Source of the DNA: Scytonema sp. UIC 10036 | GTDB taxonomy: Bacteria; Cyanobacteriota; Cyanobacteriia; Cyanobacteriales; Nostocaceae | Direction: 5' to 3' | Assembly: GCF_009725235.1 (NCBI RefSeq) | Contig: NZ_WJFC01000003.1 | Span: 124,001 to 188,000 of the forward strand | Length of the DNA stretch: 64,000 bases | Part shown: positions 6,837 to 23,837 of the stretch, piece by piece | How the letters are laid out: the number at the start of each line of letters is the position of its first letter | Numbering within the stretch: position 1 is the first letter of the stretch | The notes under the pieces: model-generated | Seen by the model: the letters and a program-made list of their open reading frames with translations, nothing else | Databases searched by the model: none | What the model was told of the DNA's origin: nothing | Position numbers and translations under genes: made by a program

Positions 6837-9800
6837 ATGGCTCGTAACTTGTACGCTTTGTTAGTTGGTATCGATAAATATCCTGACCCAAACCATCATC
6901 TGCAAGGCTGTGTTAACGACATTACAGCAATAGAAGAGTATCTTAACGAACGATTTGATAAAAAAGAATATCAACTACATTTGCGATCGCTTAAAGATGA
7001 GCAAGCAACCCGTAAGGGAGTTATTGATGGCTGGAGGAACCATCTCGGTCAGGCAAAGGCGGATGATATAGTTCTGTTTTACTATAGCGGTCATGGTGCC
7101 CAGGAGTTGGCACCAAAGGAATTTTGGCACTTAGAACCAGACCATCTTGATGAAACTTTAGTCTGTTATGACAGTCGTAGCGAGAACGGCTGGGATTTGG
7201 CAGACAAAGAATTGGCACTACTGATTGCCCAAGTGGCGGAAAATAATCCGCACATAACAATTATTATGGACTGTTGCCATTCTGGTTCTAGCACAAAAGA
7301 TCCAATGCAACAGGCTTTGATTCGTCGCTTCCCTACAGATAAGCGAGAACGTCCATTGGATAGCTTTATTTTTTCTCTGGAAGATTTAAAACAACTTTCA
7401 GATTCTCGTGACCCGGAAAAACACCCAACTGGCTGGAAATTACCCAAAGGTCGTCATGTTCTTTTAGCTGCTTGTCGAGACTACGAAACAGCAAAGGAAT
7501 ATTACGGAGGTGACAAACACCGAGGTAGTTTCTCTTATTTTTTGATGGATACGCTCTCCAAAGCCAATGGAAAGTTGACTTATCGGGACTTGTTTGGGCG
7601 AACAAATGCCACGATTCGCAGTAAAATTACAGACCAGTCTCCTCAGTTGGAAGTGAAGAATTCTCTTGATGACAACAAATTTTTTCTCGATGGAGCGATC
7701 GCGGAAATCGATCCGTACTTCATTGTTAAAAATGACTTGACTCATGGCTGGGTAATAGAAGGGGGTGCAGTTCACGGAGTTCAACCACCCAAAGACGGCG
7801 AAACCACTTTACTTGCACTGTTTGACTTTGATGCCAAGATTGACGATCTGCGCGACCCTTCAAAGTCTTTGGGTACTGCAAAAGTCACTCAAGTGTTGCC
7901 AACCAAGAGTAAGATAGATATCGAAGGTATACAAAACCTGACTGCCGAGTACACTTTTAAAGCAGTTGTTACCAGTCTACCGCTACCACCATTGGGAGTC
8001 TATTTTGAGGGTGATGAAGCGGGTGTGACTTTAGCACGGGAAAAGCTAAAAACATCTGGGCTGAATGGTCAGCATCCCTCACCCTATGTCCGCGAAGAGC
8101 AAGAAGTAGGCAAAGCGGAGTTTCGCCTATTGTGTCGCCATGAGCAATATTTAATAGCAAGACCGACAGACGCTCGACCTCTTGTAGAACAAATTGATGG
8201 TTATACTCCCCAGAATGCATCCAAGGCTATTAAACGTTTAGAACATATTGCCCGTTGGACAACGATTGCTCAACTTGCAAATACTGCGACAACTCGAATT
8301 AAAGCGGGTGATGTCAAGATGGAACTCCTATTTGCCGATCGAGAGTTCTCTCAATCACAGCAAATGCGTTTGCACTACAAATATCGGGATGGTGAGTGGC
8401 AACAGCCAGAATTTCAACTTAAACTTACCAATACAACTCAGAAACCACTTTACTGTGCTTTGGTCAATCTTTCTGATAGTTTCGCTATTAGCGCCCCGTT
8501 TTTTGAAGCAGGTAGCGTCAGGCTTCAACCAGGAGAAGAAGTTTGGGCGTTAGATGGAGAAGAGTTGGTACTAGAAGTTCCAGATGAGTACTGGGAACAA
8601 GGAATTACCGAATATAAAGATATTATTAAATTAATTGTGAGCAACAATGAATTTGACGCTAGATTGCTCGCGCAAGGTAAACTTGATGCTCCTCGTCCAC
8701 CTATATCAAGAGATATAGATTCTCCAAATCAAAGCAGCCTGGAACGTTTGATGAATCGAACTCAACATCGTGATATCAAACCCAAAAACTCAGCAAAATA
8801 TGACGATTGGTACGCTGAGGCGATCGCAATTACTACAGTCCGCCCATTGGATTCTACCCCAGTTTCTCAGCAACAAGAACAACAATTAGGAGCAGGAGTC
8901 AAATTACAACCACATAAGAGCTTGGTGGCAAATGTTCGCATCACTTCTACACCACAAGTGAGCCGAGATTTGGGTAATAAAATCTTGCCTCCTATCCTAC
9001 GGGAAGATCCAAAAGTTGTTCGACCCTTTCAATTTACGACTAGTCGCGGTAGTGCTCCTGGATTAAGTGTATTGGAATTGACCGAAGTTCAAGACTACAC
9101 AGCTGTGACGCCAAATGCACCTTTGAAATTATTAGTTGATACACCGCTAGCCCACAATGAATATCTTCTTCCTATTGGCTATGATGGTGAATTTTTCTTA
9201 CCCTTAGGTCGCGGTCAAACAACTCAAGATGGCAAAACAGAAATTGAGATAGAAAGACTACCAGCCCCAGTTCGCCAGGGAGAGCGCAGCATCCAAGGGT
9301 CTATTCGTATCTTCTTTGAAAAAATAATTAGCGAGAATTTTGGGCGGGAATTTTCCTACCCAATTTTAGCGATCGCTGAAGTAGGAGATAACAAGAAAGT
9401 CACCTACAAACGGGTGATGGTTGATGTTAAGCAACAGGTGAGCCAAGCAAAACGAATTGCTCTCTTCATTCACGGAATTGTTGGCGACACTCAAAGTTTA
9501 GTTGAGAATATAAAACAACCTATATTGCAACCGGATGGTCAAAAACGTTCCATCAGCGAACTTTATGATGTCATTCTCACCTTTGATTACGAAAACTTAA
9601 ATACTTCAATTAAAGAGAATGCTCTACATCTGAAACAAAGGCTAAGAGAAGTCGGTTTGGGAGAAAACCACGGCAAAGAACTACACATTATTGCTCATTC
9701 GATGGGGGGTTTGGTATCTCGTTGGTTTATTGAGCGAGAAGGAGGGAATAAAGTAGTCCAACACCTGATTATGCTGGGTACACCAAATGCAGGTTCTCCT

Positions 9801-10301
9801 TGGCCAGTTGTGGGAGATTGGGTCAAACTCACTTTGAGTATTGGACTCAACGGTCTTTCTATGGTTGCTTGGCCTGCATCAGTTTTAGCAGGGCTGATGG
9901 GCTTTTTAGAAAAAAATATTCGCGTATCCTTAGCCGAAATGAAATCAGGTTCTGATGTACTAAATTCTCTAGCAGCCAGTGACGACCCTGGCATTCCCTA
10001 CTCAATTATCGCTGGCAATACATCTATTATTCCTGCTGCCTTGCCACAGCAATCTACAGAAAATCAGAGCGTGTTTGAGCGGTTACAACAAAGTTTATTT
10101 AAGAAAGTTGTGGCTATGCCTTTCTTTGGTGTAGCGAACGATATTGCCGTAACCGTAAATAGCATTAAGAGTCTTCCGTCATGGCGATCGCTTTCACCCT
10201 TTATTCAAGAAATTGCTTGCGACCATTTAAGTTACTTTGGGAGCGAATTAACAGAAGTTGGGTTAGAAGCTTTGGCTGTGGCTATTACAAAACAGAAGTA
10301 A
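6837..10301 (+). CDS. Caspase-domain (orthocaspase-like) protein fused to a lipase-like alpha/beta hydrolase
   Basis: The 1154-residue protein starts with a peptidase C14/caspase domain (about 4-285). The catalytic His is in YYSGHGAQ (H86) and the Cys in IMDCCHSGS (C147), so the protease looks intact. The middle (about 290-860) is unassigned, with beta-rich stretches (for example about 495-600). The C-terminus (about 870-1154) is an alpha/beta hydrolase resembling PGAP1/lipase families: oxyanion region ALFIHGIVGD (H879), nucleophile elbow IIAHSMGGLVSRW (S955), MLGTPNAGSPWP, and a likely catalytic His in CDHLSYF (H1130). No signal peptide is seen, so it probably acts in the cytoplasm or at the membrane surface. 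It lies 87 bp upstream of two caspase-STAND genes on the same strand. A role as a proteolytically controlled, membrane-attacking effector is inference. Confidence 0.88.
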   Translation: MARNLYALLVGIDKYPDPNHHLQGCVNDITAIEEYLNERFDKKEYQLHLRSLKDEQATRKGVIDGWRNHLGQAKADDIVLFYYSGHGAQELAPKEFWHLEPDHLDETLVCYDSRSENGWDLADKELALLIAQVAENNPHITIIMDCCHSGSSTKDPMQQALIRRFPTDKRERPLDSFIFSLEDLKQLSDSRDPEKHPTGWKLPKGRHVLLAACRDYETAKEYYGGDKHRGSFSYFLMDTLSKANGKLTYRDLFGRTNATIRSKITDQSPQLEVKNSLDDNKFFLDGAIAEIDPYFIVKNDLTHGWVIEGGAVHGVQPPKDGETTLLALFDFDAKIDDLRDPSKSLGTAKVTQVLPTKSKIDIEGIQNLTAEYTFKAVVTSLPLPPLGVYFEGDEAGVTLAREKLKTSGLNGQHPSPYVREEQEVGKAEFRLLCRHEQYLIARPTDARPLVEQIDGYTPQNASKAIKRLEHIARWTTIAQLANTATTRIKAGDVKMELLFADREFSQSQQMRLHYKYRDGEWQQPEFQLKLTNTTQKPLYCALVNLSDSFAISAPFFEAGSVRLQPGEEVWALDGEELVLEVPDEYWEQGITEYKDIIKLIVSNNEFDARLLAQGKLDAPRPPISRDIDSPNQSSLERLMNRTQHRDIKPKNSAKYDDWYAEAIAITTVRPLDSTPVSQQQEQQLGAGVKLQPHKSLVANVRITSTPQVSRDLGNKILPPILREDPKVVRPFQFTTSRGSAPGLSVLELTEVQDYTAVTPNAPLKLLVDTPLAHNEYLLPIGYDGEFFLPLGRGQTTQDGKTEIEIERLPAPVRQGERSIQGSIRIFFEKIISENFGREFSYPILAIAEVGDNKKVTYKRVMVDVKQQVSQAKRIALFIHGIVGDTQSLVENIKQPILQPDGQKRSISELYDVILTFDYENLNTSIKENALHLKQRLREVGLGENHGKELHIIAHSMGGLVSRWFIEREGGNKVVQHLIMLGTPNAGSPWPVVGDWVKLTLSIGLNGLSMVAWPASVLAGLMGFLEKNIRVSLAEMKSGSDVLNSLAASDDPGIPYSIIAGNTSIIPAALPQQSTENQSVFERLQQSLFKKVVAMPFFGVANDIAVTVNSIKSLPSWRSLSPFIQEIACDHLSYFGSELTEVGLEALAVAITKQK

Positions 10302-10388
10302 ATTACAAAAAGACACTCATTACCCATTCTTTAATGTCTTCGGAGTGACTTTCTTGCTTTTGTATTAATGAGATCGAGAGGTGTATCA

Positions 10389-13300
10389 ATGTCCAAAAAT
10401 AAATTCAACCGAAATTTGGCTATTATTATTGGTATTAATAATTACGAAAATGGCATTCCAAAACTAGAAACAGCAGATCCAGATGCTTTGAAACTAGCTC
10501 AAATTCTAAGAGAGCAACATACACATCTCAAAGAAAAATATCAAGAACAAAATCAATATGAAGTTCAGCTGTTGTTGAATCAACGTGCTAACCTGAACCA
10601 GCTTAACCAATTGATTGAAGACTTGAAAAAAGGACAAATACCTTTTGATAACGAAAAAGTTACAGTAACGTCATCAGATCGCGTCTTTTTTTACTTTGCC
10701 GGTCATGGAAAAGCCTTGGATGCTTTAGATAATCAAGAAGGACCTGTGGGTTATCTCATTCCTCAAGATGCCATCTTAGGCAACAGCAATACTTACTTGC
10801 CGATGCAGGATTTACATGATGCCTTAAACGCGCTTCCTTGTCGGCATATGCTAGCAATTCTAGATTGCTGCTTTGCTGGAGCTTTTCGTTGGGCTAGTAT
10901 TAAACGAGAGATTCAGCCCAAAGTCACAGTCTATAAAGAACGTTACGATCGCTTTATTACTGATGCAGCTTGGCAAGTGATTACTTCGGCAGCTGATGAC
11001 CAAAAAGCTTTGGATTTTTTAGGGGTACGAGGAGAAGTCAAATTTGGGAACGAAGTTCACTCTCCTTTTGCAAAAGCTCTTTTTGATGCTTTACTAGGGG
11101 GTGAAGGTGCAGACTCCAATCAAGATGGTATCATCACTGCAACCGAGCTTTACTCATATCTGCGCGATAAAGTTGAAATCTTCACTGAAAATAACTACAA
11201 GCGGCAAACTCCAGGTCTATGTCCGTTGAAAAAACATGATAAAGGGGAATTCATCTTTCTGTTACCTAATTTTGACCGGGATAAACTAGACGATGCACCA
11301 GAGCTTAACTTAGCAAATAATCCCTACCGAGGATTGCAATCTTATGATGAAAAAGACAGTCACTTATTCTTTGGTAGAGAGAATCTGATTGAAAAGCTTT
11401 ATCAGAAAGCAATTGCTAATAAGCAGCCATTAACATTAGTTTTGGGTGCGTCTGGAACAGGAAAATCCAGCTTAATGAAAGCCGGTTTGTTACACCGTCT
11501 GCGTCATTCCCAAGAGCAGAAATTTAAAATTTTAGACCCCATGCGACCGGGGGAAAGCCCTTTGAAGGCTTTGGCACAAGTGTGTTTACCAATCGCAACC
11601 GTGACAGCAGAGGAACTCGCAAAAGACAAACAAGCTTTAGCAAATAGCATTGAAGGTTGGAACAAGACTAATTCTCAGACTAAACTTTTACTACCAATTG
11701 ACCAATTTGAAGAATTGATAACTTTGTGTAAGAGTGATGAAGAACGAGAGCAGTTTCAGAAGTTGCTTTTGAATGCGATCGCTAAATATCCCGATAAAAT
11801 TCATGTAGTTATCACCTTGCGACTCGACTTTGAAGCGCAGTTTCAAAACTCTGTACTCAAAGACTTTTGGAATGATGAAACTCGGTTTGTCGTTCCACCC
11901 ATGACTCAAGATGAATTCCGCGAAGCCATTGAAAAACCTGCTTCGGAAAAAGTCGTGTATTTTGAACCTCCTAGCTTGGTAGACGAACTCATTAACGAAG
12001 TCGTACAGATGCCTGGAGCTTTACCCTTGCTGTCTTTTACCTTAAGCGAATTGTACCTGAAGTATTTGGGCGATCGCACGCGGAATAATCGCGCCTTAAC
12101 AAAGAAAGATTATGAAGAGTTAGGAAAAGTCATTGGTTCTCTAACCAAGCGTGCTAACGATGAGTACGATCGATTAGTTGCAGAAGACTCTGCTTATCAA
12201 GATACGGTGCGGCGGGTCATGTTGCGGATGATTTCATTGCAAGGTGGAGAGTTAGCACGGCGACAAGTGCCTAAATTGGAATTAGTGTATCCCGATAAAG
12301 AAGAAAACGAGCGCGTGCAAACAGTTATTAAACGCTTTTCTGAAGCCCGTTTAATTGTTGAAGGTTCCAATCCTCAAGGCGAACCTTATGTAGAGCCAGC
12401 CCATGATGCTTTGGTGCAAGGGTGGGATAAGTTGCTGGCTTGGAAAAATTCTAAAGAAGAAGAGGACAATATAATTTTACAACGGCGACTGACACCAGCT
12501 GCCGAAGAATGGAAAAGCGTTACAAACAAGTTACAACCATCAGGTTTGCAAACAAAGGCTGAAAATGTTGTTGATTGGTTAGATCGCAGGCTTTACGTTC
12601 TCGAAAACTTATTTGATAAAGTCAGTATTAGGCTAGTTCGTCGATGGCAACAAAGACAAAATCAGCAACAAACTTTGCGGGAAAAACCCATACAGTTTCT
12701 TTGGAATAGTAATCCTTATCTTGATGTATTAAATGAAAAACTCCAGATTAATAACAATTGGTTCAACCAATTAGAGACAGAATTTGTCCAACAAAGCGTT
12801 TTACAAAAACGCCGAAACATTAGTTGGCGGTGGCGGATTGCGATTGCCGTTATGCTGGGTTTAAGCGGGTTGACTATTGCTACTTTAATTGGTCAGAGAC
12901 AAGCATTGATAGGTCAAGTCGGTGCTTTTAGACAGTCTGCAGAGGCAAATTGGCGTTCTAATCAAGAGTTAGATGCGTTAATCGACAGTGTACGTGCAGC
13001 AAAGACTTTAAAAGACTGGCCTTGGTTCTTATTCAAACCCGATAAGGAGCTAAAACATCAAGTTTCTCACACGCTGCGAAAACTTTACCATACAACAAAA
13101 GAACGCAACCGTAGGTCAAAGCCGATAGGGACATTAGTCGGGATGGCTCCCGAAAACAAAGTCCTAGTTTCCGATCGCACAGACACACTTGTTAGTCACC
13201 TTTTGGACTCAGAGGGTAACCAGATTATTCCATTCTCAGGGTTTCAAACTTCGTCTAATCCTGTTAACCATAGTCCGGGCGTAACTTATAGTCTCGATGG

Positions 13301-14909
13301 AAAACTACTGGCAGTGGCGGATATTTATGGGGCTAGCTGGAACGCTCATAAGAATGGTACTGTTAGTTTTTGGGATATTGACAACAAAAGGTTGATCCAA
13401 TTTCCAGGACATCAAGGTGGAGTTAAAAGTATTAGTTTCAGCCCAGATAGCAAAAAAATAGCTACTGCTGACGCCAGTGATACTATTCGCCTGTGGAGTT
13501 TGCAAGACACACAACAATTTAAAGAATTCAAGAATAATATATACAAAAACATAGTAGGTATCGGTTTTAGCCCTGATAACCAGCTACTGGTAGCAACAGC
13601 AGATAATGATGAAAATAAATTAAGCTTGTGGGAAATCGAAGGCAACCAAAAATGGTCAGAATTAAATGGGGATGGGGATAAGCAAAAACGTTTCTCTAGA
13701 GCAATTTTTAGCAATGATGGTCAACGAATTGCAATTGAGTATGGCTGGGAGCCTCAGTATGGTACAGATGAGTCACGAAATATGAGTCTTTTCTTATGGA
13801 GCTACTTAGAGGACAAGCAGAATAATAATATAATAGGACTATCTAATTTGTACTCATTTCCATTAGAAACAAACGCTATCTCCATGTCTATGAGTCCAGA
13901 TGGAAAGCAGCTTGCTACTGCCTTATATGACAGTAACATTCGGTTTTGGAGCTTAGAAGATAAGAAGTTAGAGTGGGAAGAATTTCCCTATGAAGCAATA
14001 AGCGTCAGTTTGAGTGCAGATGGCAAAAAATTAGCCACTACAGACAAAAATGGCAAAGTCGGTGTATGGAATTTAGATAGTAGACAATTTGTCTCAATTC
14101 CAGAAATTCCAGGTTTTGTCAAAAACCTTAGTTTAAGTGCGGATGGCAAAAAATTAGCCATCATTAACCAAGATGGCACGGTTGGCTTGTGGAATTTGGA
14201 AAACAAAACGTTTGTCTCATTAAACAAAAAGTTTTCAGGCGGAGCTTTGGAGAGTAAGGATGTCAACTCTATGGGAGTCAAATTTAGCCTTGATAGCCAG
14301 CAAATAGCCATAATTTCACATACGGACAAGACTAATACAGTAGTCAACCTATGGGACTTGAAAACTGATAAAATGCAGATTATCGCAGACTCTACGAGTA
14401 TATTTGATGTTATATTTAGTGTGAAAAATCAGCTACAGAAGCTAACACCAGATTTAGTGATAGACGAAATAACATTATCGGACTTGAAAAATATTTTGTT
14501 GTTTAAATTCCAACAATCTAGATGCTCGTTTTCTTTACTAAATTACGCTGTCTCGGATGATACTGGCTTCCTTCCAGTTAGTGTTAGTAAAGATGGCAGC
14601 GTAATAGCTTCCGCATCAAGTAGCTACGATTCTGTTTGCATATGGGATTTAAAAAACGGCAATGAGTTAGCTAGATTCAAAGTGCCTCAAGGTAAAATTA
14701 AGAGTATAAGTTTGAGTGGTGATAGTAGCTTAGTAGCGATTGCAGTAGACAACGGTTCTATTTTACTATGGCGAATTGGGACATTTAATAAACTGATCGA
14801 ACTAGGTTGCGATCGCCTGCGCGAGTATTTGAAGAACTCCACTGTTAGTGAGAGAGATCGCCATCTCTGTGACGATATACCAACAACCACCGCCAATTCC
14901 AACCAGTAG
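10389..14909 (+). CDS. Caspase - STAND NTPase - WD40 protein with a transmembrane segment
   Basis: The ATG at 10389 is preferred over one 21 bp upstream because GAGAGG lies at a ribosome-binding distance; this gives 1506 residues. An N-terminal caspase domain (about 5-290) carries His in FYFAGHGKALD (H106) and Cys in ILDCCFAGAF (C161). The STAND-type NTPase follows the linker NPYRGLQSYDEKDSHLFFGRE, with P-loop GASGTGKSS (K359) and a Walker B-like LLPIDQFEELI. A helical region ends in a predicted membrane helix (about 812-832, RIAIAVMLGLSG...). The C-terminal part (about 925-1480) holds diverged WD40 repeats. The tail LGCDRLREYLK...DRHLC is shared with the next gene. Caspase-STAND proteins are known from multicellular cyanobacteria and are thought to be ligand-triggered switches in conflict or death pathways; the trigger here is unknown. 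Confidence 0.9.
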   Translation: MSKNKFNRNLAIIIGINNYENGIPKLETADPDALKLAQILREQHTHLKEKYQEQNQYEVQLLLNQRANLNQLNQLIEDLKKGQIPFDNEKVTVTSSDRVFFYFAGHGKALDALDNQEGPVGYLIPQDAILGNSNTYLPMQDLHDALNALPCRHMLAILDCCFAGAFRWASIKREIQPKVTVYKERYDRFITDAAWQVITSAADDQKALDFLGVRGEVKFGNEVHSPFAKALFDALLGGEGADSNQDGIITATELYSYLRDKVEIFTENNYKRQTPGLCPLKKHDKGEFIFLLPNFDRDKLDDAPELNLANNPYRGLQSYDEKDSHLFFGRENLIEKLYQKAIANKQPLTLVLGASGTGKSSLMKAGLLHRLRHSQEQKFKILDPMRPGESPLKALAQVCLPIATVTAEELAKDKQALANSIEGWNKTNSQTKLLLPIDQFEELITLCKSDEEREQFQKLLLNAIAKYPDKIHVVITLRLDFEAQFQNSVLKDFWNDETRFVVPPMTQDEFREAIEKPASEKVVYFEPPSLVDELINEVVQMPGALPLLSFTLSELYLKYLGDRTRNNRALTKKDYEELGKVIGSLTKRANDEYDRLVAEDSAYQDTVRRVMLRMISLQGGELARRQVPKLELVYPDKEENERVQTVIKRFSEARLIVEGSNPQGEPYVEPAHDALVQGWDKLLAWKNSKEEEDNIILQRRLTPAAEEWKSVTNKLQPSGLQTKAENVVDWLDRRLYVLENLFDKVSIRLVRRWQQRQNQQQTLREKPIQFLWNSNPYLDVLNEKLQINNNWFNQLETEFVQQSVLQKRRNISWRWRIAIAVMLGLSGLTIATLIGQRQALIGQVGAFRQSAEANWRSNQELDALIDSVRAAKTLKDWPWFLFKPDKELKHQVSHTLRKLYHTTKERNRRSKPIGTLVGMAPENKVLVSDRTDTLVSHLLDSEGNQIIPFSGFQTSSNPVNHSPGVTYSLDGKLLAVADIYGASWNAHKNGTVSFWDIDNKRLIQFPGHQGGVKSISFSPDSKKIATADASDTIRLWSLQDTQQFKEFKNNIYKNIVGIGFSPDNQLLVATADNDENKLSLWEIEGNQKWSELNGDGDKQKRFSRAIFSNDGQRIAIEYGWEPQYGTDESRNMSLFLWSYLEDKQNNNIIGLSNLYSFPLETNAISMSMSPDGKQLATALYDSNIRFWSLEDKKLEWEEFPYEAISVSLSADGKKLATTDKNGKVGVWNLDSRQFVSIPEIPGFVKNLSLSADGKKLAIINQDGTVGLWNLENKTFVSLNKKFSGGALESKDVNSMGVKFSLDSQQIAIISHTDKTNTVVNLWDLKTDKMQIIADSTSIFDVIFSVKNQLQKLTPDLVIDEITLSDLKNILLFKFQQSRCSFSLLNYAVSDDTGFLPVSVSKDGSVIASASSSYDSVCIWDLKNGNELARFKVPQGKIKSISLSGDSSLVAIAVDNGSILLWRIGTFNKLIELGCDRLREYLKNSTVSERDRHLCDDIPTTTANSNQ

Positions 14910-15093
14910 ATGAATTCATGTAAAAGCGATCGCATAACCTTTTTTAAGTAACAACTCCATCAGCAATTGCTGGCAAGAACAAAAGTGGCAAACAAGCCAT
15001 TGTTCAAATTTTTTCGGAAAACAGCGCTCTAATATCTGTAGTTAATAGTAATTCCAAACTGCTTGCCGTCAACCTACTAGCGTCTCTTGATGC

Positions 15094-18000
15094 ATGCCTA
15101 AATCTAAATATGAATTTCAACGCAATCTAGCAGTAATTGTTGGTATTAATAATTACTCAAATGGTATACCAATGCTAGAGACTGCTGTGCCTGATGCAAC
15201 AGAAATCGCCCGGATTCTCAAACAAGATTACAAGTATGAAGTCCGGTTACTGTTAGACAAAGATGCTTCTCTGGAAGAACTTATCCAACTGCTTGTAGCT
15301 TTTCAGATGCAGAAAATACCTCTTGAGCGTGAAACAGTGATGGTCAGCGGGAATGACAGAGTGCTGTTTTACTTTGCTGGACACGGTATTGCTTTAGATG
15401 CATTGGAAAGTCAGGAAGGACCAGCTGGATACTTAATACCCCATAACGCTCATGCAGGTAATATTAGTACCTACCTACTGATGCAGGAGTTACACAACGC
15501 CCTCGTTTCACTACCCTGCCGACATCTACTGACTATCCTAGACTGCTGTTTTGCTGGGGCATTCCGTTGGTCGAGCCTTAAAAGAGACATTGTCCCTTCT
15601 CAAACTGTCTACAAAGAACGCTATGAGCGCTTTATCAGTGACCGGGCGTGGCAAGTGATTACTTCTGCGGCTCATGACCAAAAAGCTTTAGATTTCTTAG
15701 CTTGTCGTGGAACAGTAGACCAGCACTCGCCTTTTGCTGCAGCACTTTTGAGGGCGTTGCATGGTGGTGCAGACACCAATCCACCAGCTAAGAATGGTAA
15801 ACCAGCTGGGGATGGAGTGATTACAGCAACTGAATTGTATAGTTATTTGCGTGATGAGTTGGAAACGACCACAGAAAAATTCTACAAACGCCAAACTCCT
15901 GGGTTGTTTCAACTCAGTAAACACGACAAAGGGGAATATATTTTTTTAGTTCCCGGTCATGAGTTAAACCTACCACCTGCACCGCCACTCAACCGCGAGA
16001 ATAATCCATATCGAGGACTAAAACCATTTGATAAAGCCCACAGCCATCTGTTTTTTGGTAGGCAAGAGGTAGTAAAAGATTTGAGTGCATTTGTCAATAA
16101 GCACCAACTTACAGTCGTTCTGGGGGCTTCCGGCACTGGCAAGTCAAGCCTGGTGAAAGCGGGGTTAATTCCGAATTTAGAAAATGCTGTGGAGAATCAG
16201 TGGCAAGTCCTTGAACCGATACGTCCTGGTGAGTTTCCGATGACAGCTTTGGCAAGGGCAAATCTGCAAATGATTCTTGGTGCAACGCCAGAGGACACAG
16301 CCTCAATTGATGCTTATAGTCAGGATTTACGGCAGGAAACTGGGAGATTCGCTCTTGATATGGCAGCTTGGAGCAATGCCCACCCACAGATAAAACTGCT
16401 ACTGGTTGTTGACCAGTTTGAGGAGTTAGTTACCATGTGTCACTCCGAGCAGGAGCGCCAGCAATTCCTGAAAGCACTGGAGGCAGCACTTAAATCAAAT
16501 CAATTATATATTGTCTTAACTTTACGTTCAGACTTTGAACCGCAGTTTTTTAATTCTGCTTTCTCATCTCAATGGATGGATGCTAGATTTTTGCTTAGAC
16601 CAATGACACAAGATGAGCTACGTGAGGTCATTGAAAAGCCAGCAGTAGAGAGGGTGTTATATTTTAACCCGCCCGATCTAGTAGAGCGATTGATTAACGA
16701 GGTCGTGCAAATGCCAGGAGCGCTACCTTTACTTTCATTTACCCTTAGTGAACTGTACTTAAAGTATTTAGAGCGGCGTGGAGATGACCGTGCTTTAACT
16801 GAGTTTGATTACTTTGAACTCGGTAGTGTTGCTGGTTCGCTTACGCAAAGAGCAACTCAGGAATACAGGAATTTAGTGAAGGTTGACCCAGCTTACGAAC
16901 ATACCGTTCGTCAGGTGATGCTGCGAATGGTTACCGTCGAGGGTGGTGAATTGGCGCGGCGACGAGTACCGAAGTCGGAACTGGTGTACGAAAGTGTAGA
17001 AGAAAATAACCGCGTGAAGACTGTTATTGAATGTTTTTCGGCTGCACGACTTTTGGTTGAGGGAAAAGAAATTGGAGATGAAGCTTATGTAGAGCCAGCC
17101 CACGATGCTCTAGTACGGGGTTGGAATAAGTTACAGCAATGGAAAAATTCTCAGCAAGAAAGTTTAGTGCTGCGTCAGCGTCTGACGCCTGCGGCTAATG
17201 ACTGGCAAAATCAACAGCACAGCTCAGATTATCTGTGGAGTAACGACCCTCGCCTTCCCGTATTGGAAAAAGTTTTAAAATCTGCATTTGAGGGCAACTG
17301 GTTGAATAAGCTAGAGATAGAATTTGTCAAGCAGAGCATTCAGAAAAGACATGATGAACTTGAGGAAACTAAGGAGCGACTTCGTATTTCTGAGGAACGT
17401 CGGGTAGAAGCAGAAAAGCAAAACGCGATCGCACTCTCTAGAAGCTCGGAAGCTTTTTTTGGTTCCAATCAACAATTAGAAGCGCTAGTTGCAGGAGTCA
17501 AGGCTGGAAGAAAGTTACAAAAATTACTGGCAGAAAACGCAATTTCCCAAGAATCTCTAACTATAAAGCAGACTGCGATCAACCTACAGCGAATAATTTA
17601 CAGTATCAGAGAGCGCAATCGATTGGAAGGTCATAGCGGTCCCGTTCAGAGTGTCAGTTTTAGCCCCGATGGTAGTGTCATTGCTACTGCAAGTTGGGAT
17701 AATACGGTCAAACTTTGGAGTCAAGAAGGTCGTTTACTCAGAACTTTCAAGGGACATAAAGATGGAGTCTTGAGCAACAGTTTCAGCCCTGATGGTAAAA
17801 CTATTGCCTCCACAGGCTGGGACAATACAATTAAACTTTGGAACCTTGAGGGTCAGGAACTGACAACCCTGAGGGGGCATACAAACCAGATATGGAGCGT
17901 TAGTTTTAGCCCTGATGGTGAGATAATTGCTTCTACAAGTATGGATGCGACAGTCAAACTCTGGAGCAAAGACGGTGGGGAACTGAAAACTCTTAAGGGG

Positions 18001-19428
18001 CATAGCAGTACTGTCCGTAGTGTCAGTTTCAGCCCCGACGGCACAATACTTGCCTCTAGCAGTTTTGATGGTACAGTCAAACTTTGGAATCTTGACGGTA
18101 CTTTAATTAAAACTCTAACGCATGGTGGGACAGTTTACAGCATTAGTTTTAGCCCTGATGGCAAGTTAATTGCTTCTGCAAGTTCAGATAAGACAGTAAA
18201 AATCTGGAGTTTAAACGGAGAGACACGTGCAACTCTAAAAGGACATGGCAGTGGGGTCACAAGTGTTAGTTTTAGCCCACGAAGCAGTATACTGGCGTCT
18301 GGCAGTTCAGACAATACAGTTAAACTGTGGAGTTTGAACGGGCAGGAAATTGCGACGCTTAAAGGGCACACAGCAGAACTGACAAGCGTTAGTTTTCATC
18401 CTGATGGTAACACCATTGCTTCTGCTAGTGAAGATTCCACAGTCAAAATCTGGAACCTTCATCAACAGAAAATCCCAATCCTTTGCGATAACGGTCAAGA
18501 GGCTACCCGCGTTTGTTTTAGTCCTGATGGAAAAACGATCGCTAGTGATGTCAAGAACACGGTCAAACTTTGGAAGCTTAATAGTCTTGAGAGGAAAACC
18601 CTTTCTGGGCATAGCTATGGTATTGCCAGCCTCAGTTTCAGTCCAGATGGCAAGTTTATTGCCTCTGGCAGTTTTGATAAAACAGTTAAACTTTGGAGTC
18701 AAGATGGACAGGTGCTTAAGACTCTCTTTGGACACGCGGGAGCAGTGAGAAGCGTTTGTTTTAGTCCTAACAACCAGTTAATTGTGACAGGAAGTGATGA
18801 TAAAACAGCTAAACTCTGGAATCAAGATGGTCAGGAAATTGCTACTTTCACCGGACATACTGGTGGGATATGGAGTGTGAGTTTTAGCCCTGACGGCAAG
18901 ATGATTGCTTCAGGAAGTGATGGTTCTGACAAAACCATAAAACTTTGGAGCATTGACGGTCAAGAACTCAAAACTCTTGAAGGGCATAGTAGTACGATCA
19001 ATAAAGTTAGTTTCAGTCCTAACGGCGAGATAATGGCTTCTGCTAGTTCAGACAACACGGTTAAACTGTGGAGCATTAACGGTCAAGAAATCCGAACTCT
19101 TAGGGGGCATAGCTATCAAGTTTTCGACGTTAGTTTTACCTCTGATGGTCAAATGATTGCTTCTGCTGATTGGGATGGTACAATCAAACTTTGGAACCTT
19201 GAAGGTCAACTACTTGTAACTCTAGAACGGCAAAGCAATAAAATTTCTAGCCTTAGCTTTAGCCCTGACAATCAAATATTGGCTGCTGCTACTAATAAAG
19301 GAATAATTTTATGGAATTTTAATTTAGACAATTTAGTGGAGTTTGGTTGCAAATGGCTGCATAATTATTTGCTGAATAATCCTAATGTTAAAGAAGACCG
19401 CAATCTTTGCAATATACATGTACATTAA
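15094..19428 (+). CDS. Caspase - STAND NTPase - WD40 protein with 14 regular WD40 repeats
   Basis: This 1444-residue paralogue of the preceding gene has a caspase domain (about 5-280) with H97 in FYFAGHGIALD and C152 in ILDCCFAGAF. The STAND NTPase has P-loop GASGTGKSS (K350) and LLVVDQFEELV as Walker B. A charged coiled-coil segment (about 745-795) replaces the membrane helix of its neighbour. The C-terminal part (about 845-1415) holds 14 WD40 units with the pattern GH...VxSVSFSPDG...IASxSxDxTVKLW, enough for two seven-bladed propellers. Units 5, 7, 8 and 14 are the most diverged. The repeats are also similar at DNA level, which favours repeat shuffling. The tail FGCKWLHNYLL...DRNLC matches the neighbour's tail. 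It likely works as an oligomerising sensor-protease; partner and substrate are not visible. Confidence 0.92.
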   Translation: MPKSKYEFQRNLAVIVGINNYSNGIPMLETAVPDATEIARILKQDYKYEVRLLLDKDASLEELIQLLVAFQMQKIPLERETVMVSGNDRVLFYFAGHGIALDALESQEGPAGYLIPHNAHAGNISTYLLMQELHNALVSLPCRHLLTILDCCFAGAFRWSSLKRDIVPSQTVYKERYERFISDRAWQVITSAAHDQKALDFLACRGTVDQHSPFAAALLRALHGGADTNPPAKNGKPAGDGVITATELYSYLRDELETTTEKFYKRQTPGLFQLSKHDKGEYIFLVPGHELNLPPAPPLNRENNPYRGLKPFDKAHSHLFFGRQEVVKDLSAFVNKHQLTVVLGASGTGKSSLVKAGLIPNLENAVENQWQVLEPIRPGEFPMTALARANLQMILGATPEDTASIDAYSQDLRQETGRFALDMAAWSNAHPQIKLLLVVDQFEELVTMCHSEQERQQFLKALEAALKSNQLYIVLTLRSDFEPQFFNSAFSSQWMDARFLLRPMTQDELREVIEKPAVERVLYFNPPDLVERLINEVVQMPGALPLLSFTLSELYLKYLERRGDDRALTEFDYFELGSVAGSLTQRATQEYRNLVKVDPAYEHTVRQVMLRMVTVEGGELARRRVPKSELVYESVEENNRVKTVIECFSAARLLVEGKEIGDEAYVEPAHDALVRGWNKLQQWKNSQQESLVLRQRLTPAANDWQNQQHSSDYLWSNDPRLPVLEKVLKSAFEGNWLNKLEIEFVKQSIQKRHDELEETKERLRISEERRVEAEKQNAIALSRSSEAFFGSNQQLEALVAGVKAGRKLQKLLAENAISQESLTIKQTAINLQRIIYSIRERNRLEGHSGPVQSVSFSPDGSVIATASWDNTVKLWSQEGRLLRTFKGHKDGVLSNSFSPDGKTIASTGWDNTIKLWNLEGQELTTLRGHTNQIWSVSFSPDGEIIASTSMDATVKLWSKDGGELKTLKGHSSTVRSVSFSPDGTILASSSFDGTVKLWNLDGTLIKTLTHGGTVYSISFSPDGKLIASASSDKTVKIWSLNGETRATLKGHGSGVTSVSFSPRSSILASGSSDNTVKLWSLNGQEIATLKGHTAELTSVSFHPDGNTIASASEDSTVKIWNLHQQKIPILCDNGQEATRVCFSPDGKTIASDVKNTVKLWKLNSLERKTLSGHSYGIASLSFSPDGKFIASGSFDKTVKLWSQDGQVLKTLFGHAGAVRSVCFSPNNQLIVTGSDDKTAKLWNQDGQEIATFTGHTGGIWSVSFSPDGKMIASGSDGSDKTIKLWSIDGQELKTLEGHSSTINKVSFSPNGEIMASASSDNTVKLWSINGQEIRTLRGHSYQVFDVSFTSDGQMIASADWDGTIKLWNLEGQLLVTLERQSNKISSLSFSPDNQILAAATNKGIILWNFNLDNLVEFGCKWLHNYLLNNPNVKEDRNLCNIHVH

Positions 19429-19555: not shown

Positions 19556-20698
19556 TTATTGCGTTATCCAATCCACATGTTGCGCTTCGATAATATTGGG
19601 AACTTCCAAACGGTTCCTCATTCGGTAAAGCACTTTTTCAGGTACCATGGCGTCTCGCTCGCGATTTCTGTGCAACAACTCATCCCAAGGCGCTTCCAAG
19701 TAAACAATGCGAACCCTGGCTTGATAACTGGAAAACAGGCGAATTAACATCCCGCGTAACTGGCGGCTCAGGTTCGTTGCATTCCACACAAAAGATTGTT
19801 GCGATCGCAAATATTCTTTAGCAATGGCTTTTGCTTGATTGGTGACAATGCCTTGGTCATCATCTGGGTCAACACCCATTGTCTTTCGCAATTCATCCAA
19901 AGAAATAACCTCCCAGTCTGCCAAATTTTCCTGAATCCAAGTATCCTTACCAGAACCAGGCAATCCCGACATGAGAACAACCTGAAAGCGAGTGTCATCA
20001 TAAGCATCATAATCTGGGTAGCTATTTTCTTTTTGAAAATAAACAAACCGACTGTGAGCCGATGGAAACAATCGCGGATGCTCCAAGCACATATTTTCCT
20101 GACAAAATTCGCGGAAAAACTCAATACGCTCAAATAACTGCACCTGGTCACTGCAGTAACGCCCCCGAACATCTGCTTCAGCAAGCATTGCCAACATATC
20201 GCAACGTATGATTTGACTGGCTTTGATAACAGACCGTTCTGGATTGGGCTTATCCCAAAACCACAAAGGCAAACTACCAAATTTTACCAAAGCAACAATT
20301 GCTTCCCGTTCTCTCAAAGGAACATTCAAATCCCAAAGAATTTCTTGTGCCATTTTTGCTCCTTGTAGGACATGACCTTTAGAGGAGATAGCACCATCTT
20401 CTTCTATTTGAGTGGCAACAGGTTTTGCAACATCATGTAGCAAAGCAGCAGCAAATAAGACCGAACGTTCGTTTGGAGGTAGCGAACGCCATTGAGGTAA
20501 GTCAACTAATGCTTCACAGACCAAACGTGTATGTATCAGAACATTACCTTCAGCATGGTAGCGGGGGTCTTGAGGACAGTCAGCCAAAGCACTGAGCCAG
20601 TCAAACTCAGATTCCAGCGCTGACCAATCGATTGACCAGTTCGTTTCATCAGGACAGTGAGGAAACGACCAAGATATTAAAGAAACAGAGGTATTCAT
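19556..20698 (-). CDS. HD-Pnk: HD phosphohydrolase fused to 5'-OH polynucleotide kinase
   Basis: The 380-residue protein has an N-terminal HD domain (about 45-200; H48, H56, then ALLHDVAKP with H88-D89) and a C-terminal P-loop kinase (about 238-380; MSGLPGSGKDTW with K251-D252). The kinase also has an ISLDEL Asp, a lid-like HRNRERD and a final RMRNRLEVP. This is the arrangement of HD-Pnk end-healing enzymes, described biochemically from Runella: the HD module removes 2',3'-cyclic or 3' phosphates and the kinase phosphorylates 5'-OH ends. Its start overlaps the stop of the RNA ligase gene by 4 bp (ATGA), so the two are almost certainly co-translated. Healing followed by sealing of broken RNA is the expected pathway. 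Activity is inferred from motifs only. Confidence 0.9.
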   Translation of the reverse strand: MNTSVSLISWSFPHCPDETNWSIDWSALESEFDWLSALADCPQDPRYHAEGNVLIHTRLVCEALVDLPQWRSLPPNERSVLFAAALLHDVAKPVATQIEEDGAISSKGHVLQGAKMAQEILWDLNVPLREREAIVALVKFGSLPLWFWDKPNPERSVIKASQIIRCDMLAMLAEADVRGRYCSDQVQLFERIEFFREFCQENMCLEHPRLFPSAHSRFVYFQKENSYPDYDAYDDTRFQVVLMSGLPGSGKDTWIQENLADWEVISLDELRKTMGVDPDDDQGIVTNQAKAIAKEYLRSQQSFVWNATNLSRQLRGMLIRLFSSYQARVRIVYLEAPWDELLHRNRERDAMVPEKVLYRMRNRLEVPNIIEAQHVDWITQ

Positions 20699-21486
20699 GG
20701 TTGGAACAAATCGACATCAGGACGCAGAATATTAGGTATGATGGGGCGGTTGAGCCAATGACCATCCGATTGCTTGATAGTTGTTAAAAAGCTGGAACGA
20801 ACGTACTTATAGCGAGCAGTCACCGTATCTCCCAGTTCAACCTTGATATACAAACCTTCCATAAGATTTGTTTGGTCAGTTTGTTTGAGAGAACGTTCCA
20901 CATCCAGTCCCCTTTCCAGGCAAAGTTCCTGAAAGCGTTCTAAATGTTGGGGAGTTTGGTAATGAGAATTACCCAGCAATCCTATCAGTTGTTTGTAAGA
21001 TAAGAGTTCCCCAGCAAACAGCACGGGTACCGAAACCAAAGGTAACCCAGCCAATAACTGCTTGCGGCTAGACGTACTGAGAAATTGTTGCTTTTCCAAA
21101 TCCAGCACATCGTACTCAAGAAAGTAATGAGGCAAAGCGTCGTAAAACACAGTATGTTTGGCGTAAAGCCATTCGCCAAACAAAATATAGCGAGTTCCCA
21201 ACACCTGCCAAAAAGCAACAGCATGGGTATTTGCCCACTGTTTGAACAAGTTAAAATGCTTTTCCCTCTGTCCCCCCGTGAGATAGTGTCCCCGACTTTG
21301 CAATTGGATTAGACCATCAGCACTGAAACTAATAGCAGCATTAGCCCCATCTACTTTTTCTTCGACGACTACATACTGGTGTTGTATGGCACAAAAGGGG
21401 ATGCTATCGAGGTCTTCATCTCCTGGTTGCGATCGCGAACCCTCAATATGATGAGTACGCGGATATTTGTATATTTGTTTTTCCAT
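20695..21486 (-). CDS. RNA ligase family protein
   Basis: The 263-residue protein belongs to the nucleotidyltransferase superfamily of ATP-dependent RNA ligases. Motif I is EEKVDGANA, with K44 as the lysine that would become adenylylated. FGEWLYAKH corresponds to motif III/IIIa, EGLYIKVE to motif IV and ARYKYVR to motif V. It is short, lacking a large extra C-terminal domain, as in minimal Rnl-type ligases. It is the first gene of a two-gene unit with HD-Pnk, whose 5'-phosphate and 3'-OH products are its substrates. Together they form an RNA-repair cassette. The physiological RNA target (for example tRNA cut by a toxin) is unknown. Confidence 0.9.
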   Translation of the reverse strand: MEKQIYKYPRTHHIEGSRSQPGDEDLDSIPFCAIQHQYVVVEEKVDGANAAISFSADGLIQLQSRGHYLTGGQREKHFNLFKQWANTHAVAFWQVLGTRYILFGEWLYAKHTVFYDALPHYFLEYDVLDLEKQQFLSTSSRKQLLAGLPLVSVPVLFAGELLSYKQLIGLLGNSHYQTPQHLERFQELCLERGLDVERSLKQTDQTNLMEGLYIKVELGDTVTARYKYVRSSFLTTIKQSDGHWLNRPIIPNILRPDVDLFQP

Positions 21487-21999: not shown

Positions 22000-22758
22000 T
22001 TAGGCATTAACAACCCCTGCATCAACTGCAAGTTCTAACAGGTGAAAAGGTGGTTGGTCGGGGAGCTTTTTCTTCAGAAGCGGCATGGATACGTTATACA
22101 CCGGAATGTTACTTATAGTTCGCCCCTCTAAATGACCGTTATGAGCGTGACCGTGAAAAGCAGCAGTCACCGAATATCGGGTGAGTGGTTCCTCAAGACG
22201 ACTCGAACCGAGAAATGGAAAAATTTCTGGCGGTTCACCCTCAACGGTAGCCTGGATTGGGGAATAGTGAAGTACAGCAATGCGGTGAGAAGTTTCTAAT
22301 CTCGCTAATGCGGATTCTAGTTTTAAGGCTTCATCCACTGCCTCATGGACAAAGTGCTTGATGGCTTCTTCACCCCAAGCTCCTAACGCCTTAGAACCAA
22401 AGCCTCCAGCAAATCCCTTCACCCCAGCAAAACCAACACCCTTAACCTCACAAGCATCCCCATCAAGCACCCGCACACCTGCTTCAGTCAGAATTTGTTT
22501 GACCTCATCTTGCTTTCCAGATTCATAATCGTGATTGCCAAACACAGCAATAGTTGGAATTTTAGCAGATACTAGCTCCTTGACGAGGACGTAGGCTTCC
22601 TCGGGCTGCCCGTAGTCTGTTAAATCGCCGCATAGCAACAGCACGTCGGCAAGCTCGCTCGCTTGCTCAAACAGGGGTTGCAAGGCTCCCTGAGATGTCT
22701 TGGTACAATGGATATCTCCTACTGCTGCTATACGCACTACATCCTTCGTTGTCGCCAT
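22000..22758 (-). CDS. Metallophosphoesterase (calcineurin-like)
   Basis: The 252-residue protein has the complete metallophosphoesterase motif series: AVGDIHCTK (D-x-H), LLCGDLTDYG (GDxxD), VFGNHDYESG (GNHD), VLHYSP (H) and FHGHAHNG (GHxH). It has no signal peptide, so it is cytoplasmic. It could hydrolyse phosphomono- or phosphodiesters; the substrate is not evident. It lies upstream of the RNA ligase/HD-Pnk pair on the same strand but 513 bp away, and is divergent to a nucleotidyltransferase at 23013, so a link to nucleic-acid end processing is possible but unproven. Confidence 0.9.
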   Translation of the reverse strand: MATTKDVVRIAAVGDIHCTKTSQGALQPLFEQASELADVLLLCGDLTDYGQPEEAYVLVKELVSAKIPTIAVFGNHDYESGKQDEVKQILTEAGVRVLDGDACEVKGVGFAGVKGFAGGFGSKALGAWGEEAIKHFVHEAVDEALKLESALARLETSHRIAVLHYSPIQATVEGEPPEIFPFLGSSRLEEPLTRYSVTAAFHGHAHNGHLEGRTISNIPVYNVSMPLLKKKLPDQPPFHLLELAVDAGVVNA

Positions 22759-23012: not shown

Positions 23013-23837
23013 ATGCAAACTGAAACAATCACTCAAATTGAACTCGATCCACAAACTCGCGCTTTTTACTGTCAAGCACTTCAACTCCTAAATGAGTCTA
23101 AAGTGCCATTTCTGGTTGCAGGAGCATTTGCTTTTGAGCGCCACACCGGTATTGCACGTCCGACAAAGGATTTGGATATTTTCGTTCGCCCACAGGATAA
23201 AGAGCGAATTATGGAGGTTCTATCTGCGGCAAGTTGTGAGACTGAAGTGCATTCACAACACTGGTTAGCAAAAGCTTTCTGTGGTGAAAACTTTGTTGAT
23301 ATTATCTTTAACTCTGCTAATGGTATTACTGAAATTGATAATGGCTGGTTTCAGCGTGCTGTCAGCGTGGAAGTGCTGGGCATCCCCGTCCAAATTTGTT
23401 CGCCTGAAGACCTATTATGGTCAAAGTCCTTCATCATGGCTCGCGATCGCTATGACGGAGCAGATGTTGCCCACGTACTTCTCACTTGTGCTGAAGATTT
23501 AGATTGGTCATACCTGCTTCATTGCTTTGGCTCAGACTGGCGAGTTCTCTTCAGCCATTTGATTCTTTTTGGCTTTATCTACCCAGCAGAGCGATCGCGC
23601 ATACCAAACTGGGTGATGCAAGAATTATCCAAGCGGTTGCAAGATGAAATTAACAATCCCCCCCCAAACGAAAAACTTTGTCAGGGGACACTACTCTCAC
23701 CATTACAGTATCTCATTGATGTAGAACAGTGGGGATATAAAGATGCAAGACTTCAGCCTGCAGGGAATCTGACAGCAGAAGAAGTTTCTCAATGGACAAC
23801 AACACTTACTGAAGAAATCAAAAGTAAATCTGATTGA
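23013..23837 (+). CDS. Nucleotidyltransferase-fold protein
   Basis: The 274-residue protein has an N-terminal nucleotidyltransferase fold: FLVAGAFAFERHTGIARPTKDLDIFVRP provides the Gly-rich turn and the D-x-D metal-binding pair (DLD). The third acidic strand is in NFVDIIFN. The C-terminal half is mainly helical. Such proteins resemble aminoglycoside and MNT-type nucleotidyltransferases, but the substrate is unknown. It diverges from the metallophosphoesterase gene across a 254-bp gap. Start chosen at the ATG after TATAAAGAAT; no strong ribosome-binding site is seen. Confidence 0.8.
   Translation: MQTETITQIELDPQTRAFYCQALQLLNESKVPFLVAGAFAFERHTGIARPTKDLDIFVRPQDKERIMEVLSAASCETEVHSQHWLAKAFCGENFVDIIFNSANGITEIDNGWFQRAVSVEVLGIPVQICSPEDLLWSKSFIMARDRYDGADVAHVLLTCAEDLDWSYLLHCFGSDWRVLFSHLILFGFIYPAERSRIPNWVMQELSKRLQDEINNPPPNEKLCQGTLLSPLQYLIDVEQWGYKDARLQPAGNLTAEEVSQWTTTLTEEIKSKSD

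Follow-up and report, generated by a model that had tools for sequence, protein, structure and literature searches.

Three caspase genes follow one another in the window, by which we mean the whole 64,000-nucleotide stretch of Scytonema sp. UIC 10036 DNA that was analysed, and they raise the question of whether they act as one cell-death or immune system and, if so, which of them belong to it. The gene calls came out as originally predicted: P1, P2 and P3 are neighbouring, intact open reading frames on the + strand with no internal stop, their caspase domains were recovered with Pfam, NCBIfam and PADLOC models, and GHG and DCC motifs are present in all three (Table 1). The start of P2 is most likely the ATG at 10389 (MSKNKFNRN), preferred because the ortholog in L005 starts likewise; with this start the P1-P2 gap is 87 bp, as had been claimed (66 bp if counted from the ATG at 10368), and the gap of 184 bp between P2 and P3 was likewise confirmed. 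An RND pump gene (Pfam) lies upstream of P1, and the 499 bp between the two are without a long open frame. Farther along the window, 26 kb off the locus, a ChlD-like AAA+vWA protein is encoded at 45185-47329. Because promoter-like sites (22 versus 23.5 in shuffles) and terminator-like sites (11 versus 11.5) were not above shuffle level, the case for joint transcription rests on gene spacing, on frame overlaps in relatives and on gene fusions.

Table 1. Features of the caspase locus in window coordinates; residue numbers of P2 are counted from 10368.
Feature	Position	Strand	Description
P1 (1154 aa)	6837..10301	+	caspase - uncharacterised a/b region - Ig-like sandwich - b-rich module - DUF7379/lipase-type hydrolase
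P1 caspase domain, residues 6-273	6852..7655	+	dyad H86, C147
P1 Ig-like beta-sandwich, ~residues 492-671	8310..8849	+	
P1 hydrolase, residues 876-1154	9462..10298	+	S955 (AHSMG), D1102, H1130
P2 ORF from upstream ATG	10368..14909	+	
P2, most likely start	10389..14909	+	caspase - nSTAND1 - hydrophobic helix - degenerate WD40 region
P2 caspase domain, residues 15-284	10410..11219	+	Peptidase_C14 6.4e-15 (Pfam)
P2 nSTAND1 NTPase, residues 319-718	11322..12521	+	6.7e-102 (Pfam)
P2 candidate transmembrane helix, residues 824-842	12837..12893	+	Kyte-Doolittle mean 2.17 over 19 residues
P2 WD40-type sensor region, ~residues 993-1470	13344..14777	+	WD40 2.2e-22 (Pfam)
P3	15094..19428	+	caspase - nSTAND1 (305-711) - WD40 blades (~841-1410)

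P1 joins a caspase domain (Peptidase_C14, 1.9e-20) to a C-terminal hydrolase matched by the Pfam models DUF7379 (4.3e-14), PGAP1 (3.1e-5) and LCAT-type (5.4e-5); PADLOC caspase and LmuA models also match P1, as model names rather than tested functions. P2 is a caspase-nSTAND1 protein in which a hydrophobic segment lies behind the NTPase, as it does, judged by hydropathy only, in 15 of the 18 members of its clade, and P2 probably sits in a membrane. P3 has the same design, with Pfam matches to nSTAND1 (3.6e-107) and WD40 (6.3e-166) and a caspase domain found by the NCBIfam (1.5e-15) and PADLOC (7.3e-12) models, Peptidase_C14 not being among the best 25 of 62 Pfam matches listed for this protein. 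Its propeller holds 14 blade motifs at a spacing of 40-43 aa with a mean pairwise identity of 0.43. No tandem DNA repeats were found in the WD40 part.

Conservation of the arrangement was counted across 148 genomes drawn from the whole order, with the centre genome G001 left out of the pairing count. Twelve of 14 P1 genes (13 drawn genomes) were followed on the same strand, within 3.1 kb, by a caspase-nSTAND1 gene, at gaps of 11-2986 bp and against 0.004 pairings expected under a uniform-placement estimate. Seen from the other side, 12 of 17 counted caspase-nSTAND1 genes adjoin a P1 (G062:C52, a distant place at 29% identity, was left out of the 17). Both genes occurred in 12 genomes, P1 only in 2, the partner only in 4 and neither in 130 (Fisher p 1e-12; 8.5e-12 without G001). 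In the wider set of fetched loci a partner lay within 3.1 kb of 40 of 51 P1 genes, the two frames overlapping by 8 nt in L031 and L062; the 11 P1 genes without a same-strand partner within 3.1 kb downstream include L024, where the partner is cut by the contig end, and L010, where the contig ends. Ten fetched caspase-nSTAND1 genes stand away from P1, seven without a P1-caspase-like gene upstream (L071, L073, L074, L076-L079), two preceded by another caspase (L070, L072) and one cut (L075). Across the 40 pairs the divergence of P1 tracks that of its partner (Mantel r 0.88; none of 5000 permutations as high), a correlation partly due to shared species history. Pairing of P1 with a caspase-nSTAND1 gene is well supported, and the conserved unit is P1 with one such gene.

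The original prediction had gone further, to a set of two sensors and one effector. The link of the caspase-lipase with STAND caspases as one unit stood, by synteny, co-occurrence and fusions. The trio as a conserved system did not, and was rejected as a unit: a second downstream caspase-nSTAND1 gene follows in 6 of 51 P1 relatives, some being hidden by contig ends. The second sensor caspase, P3, is optional. It was also considered as an ortholog of the third genes in L002, L011 and L017, to which it is near in a quick tree, and this was rejected since they form no supported joint clade.

Caspase genes duplicated into an ordinary cluster, with no joint function, would also lie side by side; cyanobacteria are rich in caspases, adjacent related ones are noted in the part of PMC2853523 available to us, and P2 and P3 are 59% identical over caspase and NTPase. 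The pairing frequency speaks against this for P1 and P2, and recent tandem duplication does not explain that pair because the P1 caspase differs, carrying DCCHSG where P2 and P3 carry DCCFAG (with YFAGHG in both). Fusions, too, are mostly in one order: 18 of 32 long database proteins combine P1 and caspase-nSTAND1 pieces, and P1 comes first in 16, the same order as in the gene pair. We consider this explanation very improbable overall; it is contradicted for P1 and P2 and may hold for P3.

One of the fusions, of 3057 aa, is encoded on a complete Nostoc plasmid. P1-type genes also occur on plasmids, including some typed conjugative, and plasmid copies extend outside cyanobacteria; among 50,697 phage records searched there was one weak match, to the caspase only.

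Within P1 the constant catalytic part is the caspase, not the lipase. The His-Cys dyad is conserved in 51 of 51 relatives, whereas 10 of the 51 stop short of the hydrolase (one of them, L021, is truncated at the 5' end as well), and the 41 hydrolases that are present keep Ser in 38, Asp in 41 and His in 41, the triad being assigned from position and conservation rather than from a superposed active site. Ser has become Gly in L019, L047 and L057. Given the three hydrolases without Ser and the ten proteins that end before the domain, cleavage of lipids cannot be the output of every P1, and the lipase is not a constant part. These losses would suit a P1 that works as a protease upstream or independent of P2, with a hydrolase that positions or regulates it (binding lipids or acyl groups, or deacylating) instead of destroying membranes; a palmitoyl-thioesterase model, below its cut-off, and the PGAP1 model score on it too. 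Yet the triad is otherwise kept, and the fold matches the lipases BlEst2 and CALB as well as a phospholipase, so that we regard such a role as quite unlikely.

Several basic residues of P1 are strongly conserved: K/R154, R172 and R645 in 68 of 68 sequences, R163 in 99% and R170 in 97%, a pattern that by itself fits structural residues as well as cleavage sites. Residue 154 and R172 lie C-terminal to the catalytic Cys. R669, at the junction of core and hydrolase, was not proposed as a cleavage site, as Pro comes next. Six P1 genes of relatives have an N-terminal extension of ~115 aa, and 5 of these 6 loci have a preceding lipoprotein-like gene, a label that we give on account of a GC motif following a hydrophobic start. 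Both features are absent here, the sequence upstream of 6837 having no long open frame, and the proteins upstream of P1 in L011 and L030 have no Pfam family.

The prediction that the STAND caspases are sensors agrees with the turnover of the WD40 part. Over 55 pairs of P2 orthologs median identity was.81 for the caspase,.76 for the NTPase,.50 for the linker and.33 for the sensor, which in every one of the 55 pairs was conserved least; L005 and L008 have 94% of the caspase in common versus 32% of the sensor. The propeller gives way to a hydrophobic tail, accompanied by a GUN4-type gene, in L001, L002 and L004 and to another tail in L003 and L006, and the one in L043 carries an additional periplasmic-binding-protein domain. 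Fast turnover of repeat propellers may also occur without an arms race.

Such sensors could also serve a stress or developmental death programme tied to photosynthetic or redox state, heterocysts or hormogonia. The GUN4 (tetrapyrrole-binding) gene after P2, recognised by Pfam in L001 and L002 and matched in length and place by the gene in L004, points that way, GUN4 being read as a sensor of photosynthesis status in the accessible part of PMC7159879; the periplasmic-binding-protein sensors suggest small ligands. Against it stand the patchy presence of P1 (at least 14 of 148 genomes), the plasmid copies and the fast sensor exchange. These traits are more typical of conflict systems, and we judge a stress or developmental programme rather unlikely.

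We give about an even chance to P1 and P2 being the executioner and receptor-protease of one switch for cell death or growth arrest, most likely in defence of the filament. The variable C-terminal propeller of P2 would sense a trigger and its nSTAND1 NTPase would oligomerise, bringing the caspase domains together and activating them. P2 would then recruit and activate P1, directly or by cleavage after a basic residue in the flexible caspase loop, and its probable membrane location would put P1 at its lipid substrate. In active P1 the caspase would cut cellular proteins and the lipase domain membrane lipids, and P3 would act as a second, optional receptor. The most likely use would be the sacrifice of one cell to protect the filament from phage or other invaders. 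The fuller version, in which an apoptosome-like STAND receptor (P2, optionally P3), probably membrane-spanning and with an exchangeable sensor, activates a caspase-lipase executioner, so that one switch destroys protein and membrane and in some lineages is a single polypeptide of ~3000 residues, is put forward more tentatively.

If the switch exists, multicellular cyanobacteria would hold a two-tier caspase system of receptor and executioner in which a lipase is the second weapon, and the initiator-executioner order of animal apoptosis would have a prokaryotic counterpart open to testing. Its sensor would be replaced while the enzymes stay, offering natural variants for ligand finding, and the fusions and the plasmid copies outside cyanobacteria would be compact versions.

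Among known systems, the VMAP ternary systems (Kaur et al. 2020, PMC7159879, as far as the available text goes) resemble this locus in joining a caspase with an a/b-hydrolase, in their multicellular hosts and in a predicted conflict role. Their hydrolase is a separate neighbouring gene, whereas both enzymes here lie within P1; their core is MoxR-vWA-VMAP, whereas the partner here is a caspase-nSTAND1 receptor, and no MoxR, vWA or VMAP gene was found in the 11 flanking ORFs scanned with Pfam (353-29448). EACC1-caspase systems (section 33 of the same text) are likewise two-gene units with a membrane link and STAND or other variable C-terminal domains on the caspase protein, as in P2, P3 and their relatives. 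Their constant 5' gene is a small transmembrane protein in place of the caspase-lipase; no such gene with a single TM helix was found between the RND pump gene and P1, and the NCBIfam model caspase_w_EACC1 scored 42-60 bits in P1, P2 and P3 versus a cut-off of 140. In Canu (Tuck et al. 2025, PMC12799240, available in part) an Ig-like-domain caspase activates a neighbouring pro-nuclease by proteolysis, a model for protease-effector pairs. The Canu effector is an MBL-fold nuclease, whereas here it would be a caspase-lipase, with a STAND NTPase, carried by a second caspase, as the sensor; no MBL fold was among the Pfam matches listed for P1-P3 (best 25 for P2 and P3) and the 11 flanking ORFs.

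Fungal NLRs with WD40 repeats, among whose N-terminal effectors is a sesB-type a/b-hydrolase lipase read as a non-self response (PMC4986451, in the part available), offer an analogy only, being one protein with no fused caspase. As in NLR-like STAND receptors, the NTPase of P2 and P3 (nSTAND1) has an effector on one side and a repeat sensor (WD40) behind it, and P1 has an a/b-hydrolase fold with a Ser-Asp-His triad. A Chitinophaga metacaspase bears a GDSL lipase and an amidase (PMC3501461, likewise in part). The literature searched, mostly without subscription papers and bioRxiv preprints, yielded no caspase-lipase plus caspase-STAND system, no DUF7379, and no joint mention of orthocaspase, cyanobacteria and lipase; nSTAND1 appeared together with caspase in two papers. 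The architecture of P2 and P3 has long been known from the caspase-NACHT-WD40 orthocaspases of cyanobacteria, whose descriptions, in the portions available (PMC3501461, PMC2853523, PMC7475262), include no caspase-lipase partner. The pair of caspase-lipase and caspase-nSTAND1 protein appears to be a variant of known conflict systems.

The original prediction of a three-gene caspase cluster was borne out by ORFs and domains (table): P1, the caspase-lipase, is followed by the caspase-nSTAND1-WD40 proteins P2 and P3. The intergenic gaps of 87 and 184 bp also held, given a P2 start at MSKNKFNRN, the start in the ortholog from locus L005. An HlyD/RND pump pair lies 499 bp upstream of P1, and the downstream neighbours of P3 are in opposite orientation. 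Among P1 relatives with a named source, the closest were cyanobacterial, e.g. from Brasilonema (80%).

Caspase genes and other features of the window
Feature	Position	Strand	Description
P1	6837-10301	+	caspase plus lipase-type hydrolase
P2	10389-14909 (ORF tool start: 10368)	+	caspase-nSTAND1-WD40
P3	15094-19428	+	caspase-nSTAND1-WD40
RNA-repair pair	19556-21486	-	HD + polynucleotide-kinase-like (AAA_33) protein and RNA ligase (PF09414), 4-nt ORF overlap
Metallophosphoesterase	22000-22758		adjoins RNA-repair pair
Nucleotidyltransferase	23013-23837		adjoins RNA-repair pair
GmrSD_N/DUF262 protein	39629-41409	-	PADLOC model NsnA match, 5e-61; 4-nt overlap with 216-aa ORF
Uma2-type putative endonuclease	353-976	-	PADLOC candidate PDC-S03 match, 1e-102

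Every gene that matched both the P1 caspase and the P1 middle part, in 32 genome-collection loci and 20 whole-genome regions, was taken as a P1 relative (n=51). A same-strand caspase-nSTAND1 gene (the partner) lay within 3.1 kb downstream in 40 of the 51. The distance was 300 bp or less in 21 loci, and in two of those 21 the genes overlap by 8 nt. Among the 11 exceptions, caspase-nSTAND1 was located 118 bp downstream but interrupted by the contig end (L024), at 4.4 kb beyond an intervening CHAT-TPR gene (L059), at 12.7 kb (L060) or 2.7 kb upstream of P1 (L015); the L010 contig stops 0.8 kb past P1, and no caspase-nSTAND1 was found in the available stretch around P1 in L013, L014, L022, L054, L056 and L061. 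Possible further effectors are encoded between P1 and partner: a phage-lysozyme/YkuD protein in L025 and, in L011, a DUF1400 a/b-hydrolase.

Because the 51 genes were gathered through P1, at partly hand-chosen places, an order-wide draw of 148 genomes served as the fairer test. P1 was present in at least 14 of these (E <= 1e-120), a lower bound since at most four candidates were scored per genome. With the centre genome excluded, 12 of 14 P1 genes (13 genomes) had the partner downstream on the same strand at gaps of 11-2986 bp, against 0.004 expected under even placement. Across the 148 genomes, both genes occurred in 12, P1 alone in 2, the partner alone in 4 and neither in 130. Ten caspase-nSTAND1 genes without an adjacent P1 were also examined. 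In two (L070, L072) the gene immediately upstream encodes a different caspase (708-710 aa, 32-33% identity to that of P1), seven (L071, L073, L074, L076-L079) had no upstream caspase detectable by similarity to P1-P3, and one locus (L075) was cut. The partner thus also occurs on its own.

In L010, L011, L014, L015, L017 and L030, P1 is extended at its N-terminus by ~115 aa that look helical. A conserved lipoprotein-like gene of ~290-316 aa comes before P1 in all of these but L010, where the sequence starts too late to tell. In L021 (1-1791), P1 is 78% identical to that of the window, its frame ends near residue 672 and no hydrolase remnant precedes the partner gene; recent lipase loss is likely. 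In a Chloroflexi MAG (L022, 3724-4773), the gene 22 bp downstream of a P1 relative (38%) encodes not a caspase-STAND protein but a lipid enzyme, an APP1 phosphatidate phosphatase.

On a complete Nostoc plasmid, P1 and partner modules form a single stop-free gene of 3057 codons, the one fusion checked at the DNA level. The P1 part spans residues 1-1159 (55% identity); behind it come a caspase (starting at 1219), pieces of nSTAND1 and a domain of the periplasmic-binding-protein type. Searches returned 32 long relatives, 18 of which combined P1 with caspase-nSTAND1 pieces. P1 leads in 16 of these; P0163 has the partner ahead of P1, and P0188 has a P1 part without hydrolase flanked by caspases on both sides. 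His and Cys motifs were retained in both caspases of 11 of the 13 fusions in which both were complete; the P1 caspase is incomplete in P0182, P0186, P0187 and P0190. By the patterns used, no Cys motif was found in the P1 part of P0161 and P0163, and no lipase motif in P0164. Further fusions joined P1 to CHAT (P0177, P0184) or placed it behind a long N-terminal stretch with a PG_binding_1 hit. The latter proteins (P0165, P0167, P0175, P0178-P0181; one from Isosphaeraceae) are ~2940-3460 aa long, with P1 as their C-terminal part after ~1800-2300 residues.

Plasmid copies had various neighbours: a short P1 form with a caspase-nSTAND1 gene (two Nostoc plasmids), a following CHAT-TPR gene (Anabaena) and, outside cyanobacteria, a nearby opposite-strand CHAT gene (Rhizobium, P1 at 43%) or another caspase gene upstream (Deinococcus, P1 at 39%). 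The Deinococcus locus (L064, 3590-12537) encodes, consecutively on one strand, a C1 peptidase, a hypothetical protein, an I42 protease inhibitor, the other caspase, a 323-aa protein and P1. From these fusions and plasmid neighbours, the role of second component seems to fall to another caspase-fold protease that carries a sensor part, in most cases a caspase-nSTAND1 protein; a few cases hint at CHAT as an alternative.

In the 55 pairwise comparisons of 11 propeller-bearing P2 orthologs, median identity was 0.81 for the caspase, 0.76 for the NTPase, 0.50 for the linker and 0.33 for the WD40-type sensor, which was the lowest-identity part in all 55 pairs. In Nostoc, caspase, NTPase and sensor identities were 94%, 92% and 32% (L005/L008), 94%, 89% and 32% (L005/L021) and 94%, 92% and 34% (L007/L008), although L007/L009 is a counter-case (sensor 78% at caspase 96%). 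The P1 hydrolase was not fast-evolving (median 0.75, 45 pairs). The propeller was absent from five fetched P2-type loci. In L001, L002 and L004, the protein ends in hydrophobic segments and the next gene encodes 454-455 aa, assigned to GUN4 by Pfam (L001, L002) or by size and place (L004); L003 and L006 have another tail. P2 is therefore read, from these comparisons, as a putative receptor whose engine stays constant as its detector changes, while repeat propellers may also turn over fast without conflict.

Two proteins with intact catalytic motifs form a conserved unit that can also exist as one chain, and the detector carried by the NTPase partner is variable. By analogy with other STAND proteins (cf. 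PMC7159879), a ligand would drive oligomerisation of the receptor and proximity activation of its caspase. P1 could then be activated by cleavage, given the Arg/Lys specificity of metacaspases (PMC3501461) and the conserved basic residues in the P1 loop after the catalytic Cys; the structure model has pLDDT <50 at 148-162. A protease switching on a partner enzyme has precedent in bacterial defence (PMC12799240). The hydrolase fold and triad suggest that P1 may cleave lipids. A hydrophobic segment follows the NTPase in 15 of the 18 members of the P2 clade (100% SH-aLRT, quick tree) and was not found in P3; 15 of 51 P1 relatives also have one in their C-terminal 120 residues, and the P1 of the window has none of this kind. 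Together with the lipoprotein-like gene of five loci, the candidate P2 helix and these C-terminal segments suggest action at a membrane.

Among the matches listed for P1-P3 and the flanking ORFs scanned, a defining gene of each of the VMAP, EACC1 and Canu systems was missing, and by this measure the locus belongs to none of them. A caspase-lipase combined with a caspase-nSTAND1 receptor, their fusions and the sensor exchange were not found described in the literature searched, which gave partial coverage. The single parts are known: caspase-NACHT-WD40 proteins (PMC3501461, PMC2853523, PMC7475262), nSTAND1 (PMC8195603), a caspase with a neighbouring a/b-hydrolase and the EACC1-caspase pair (PMC7159879), and a caspase-activated nuclease (PMC12799240).
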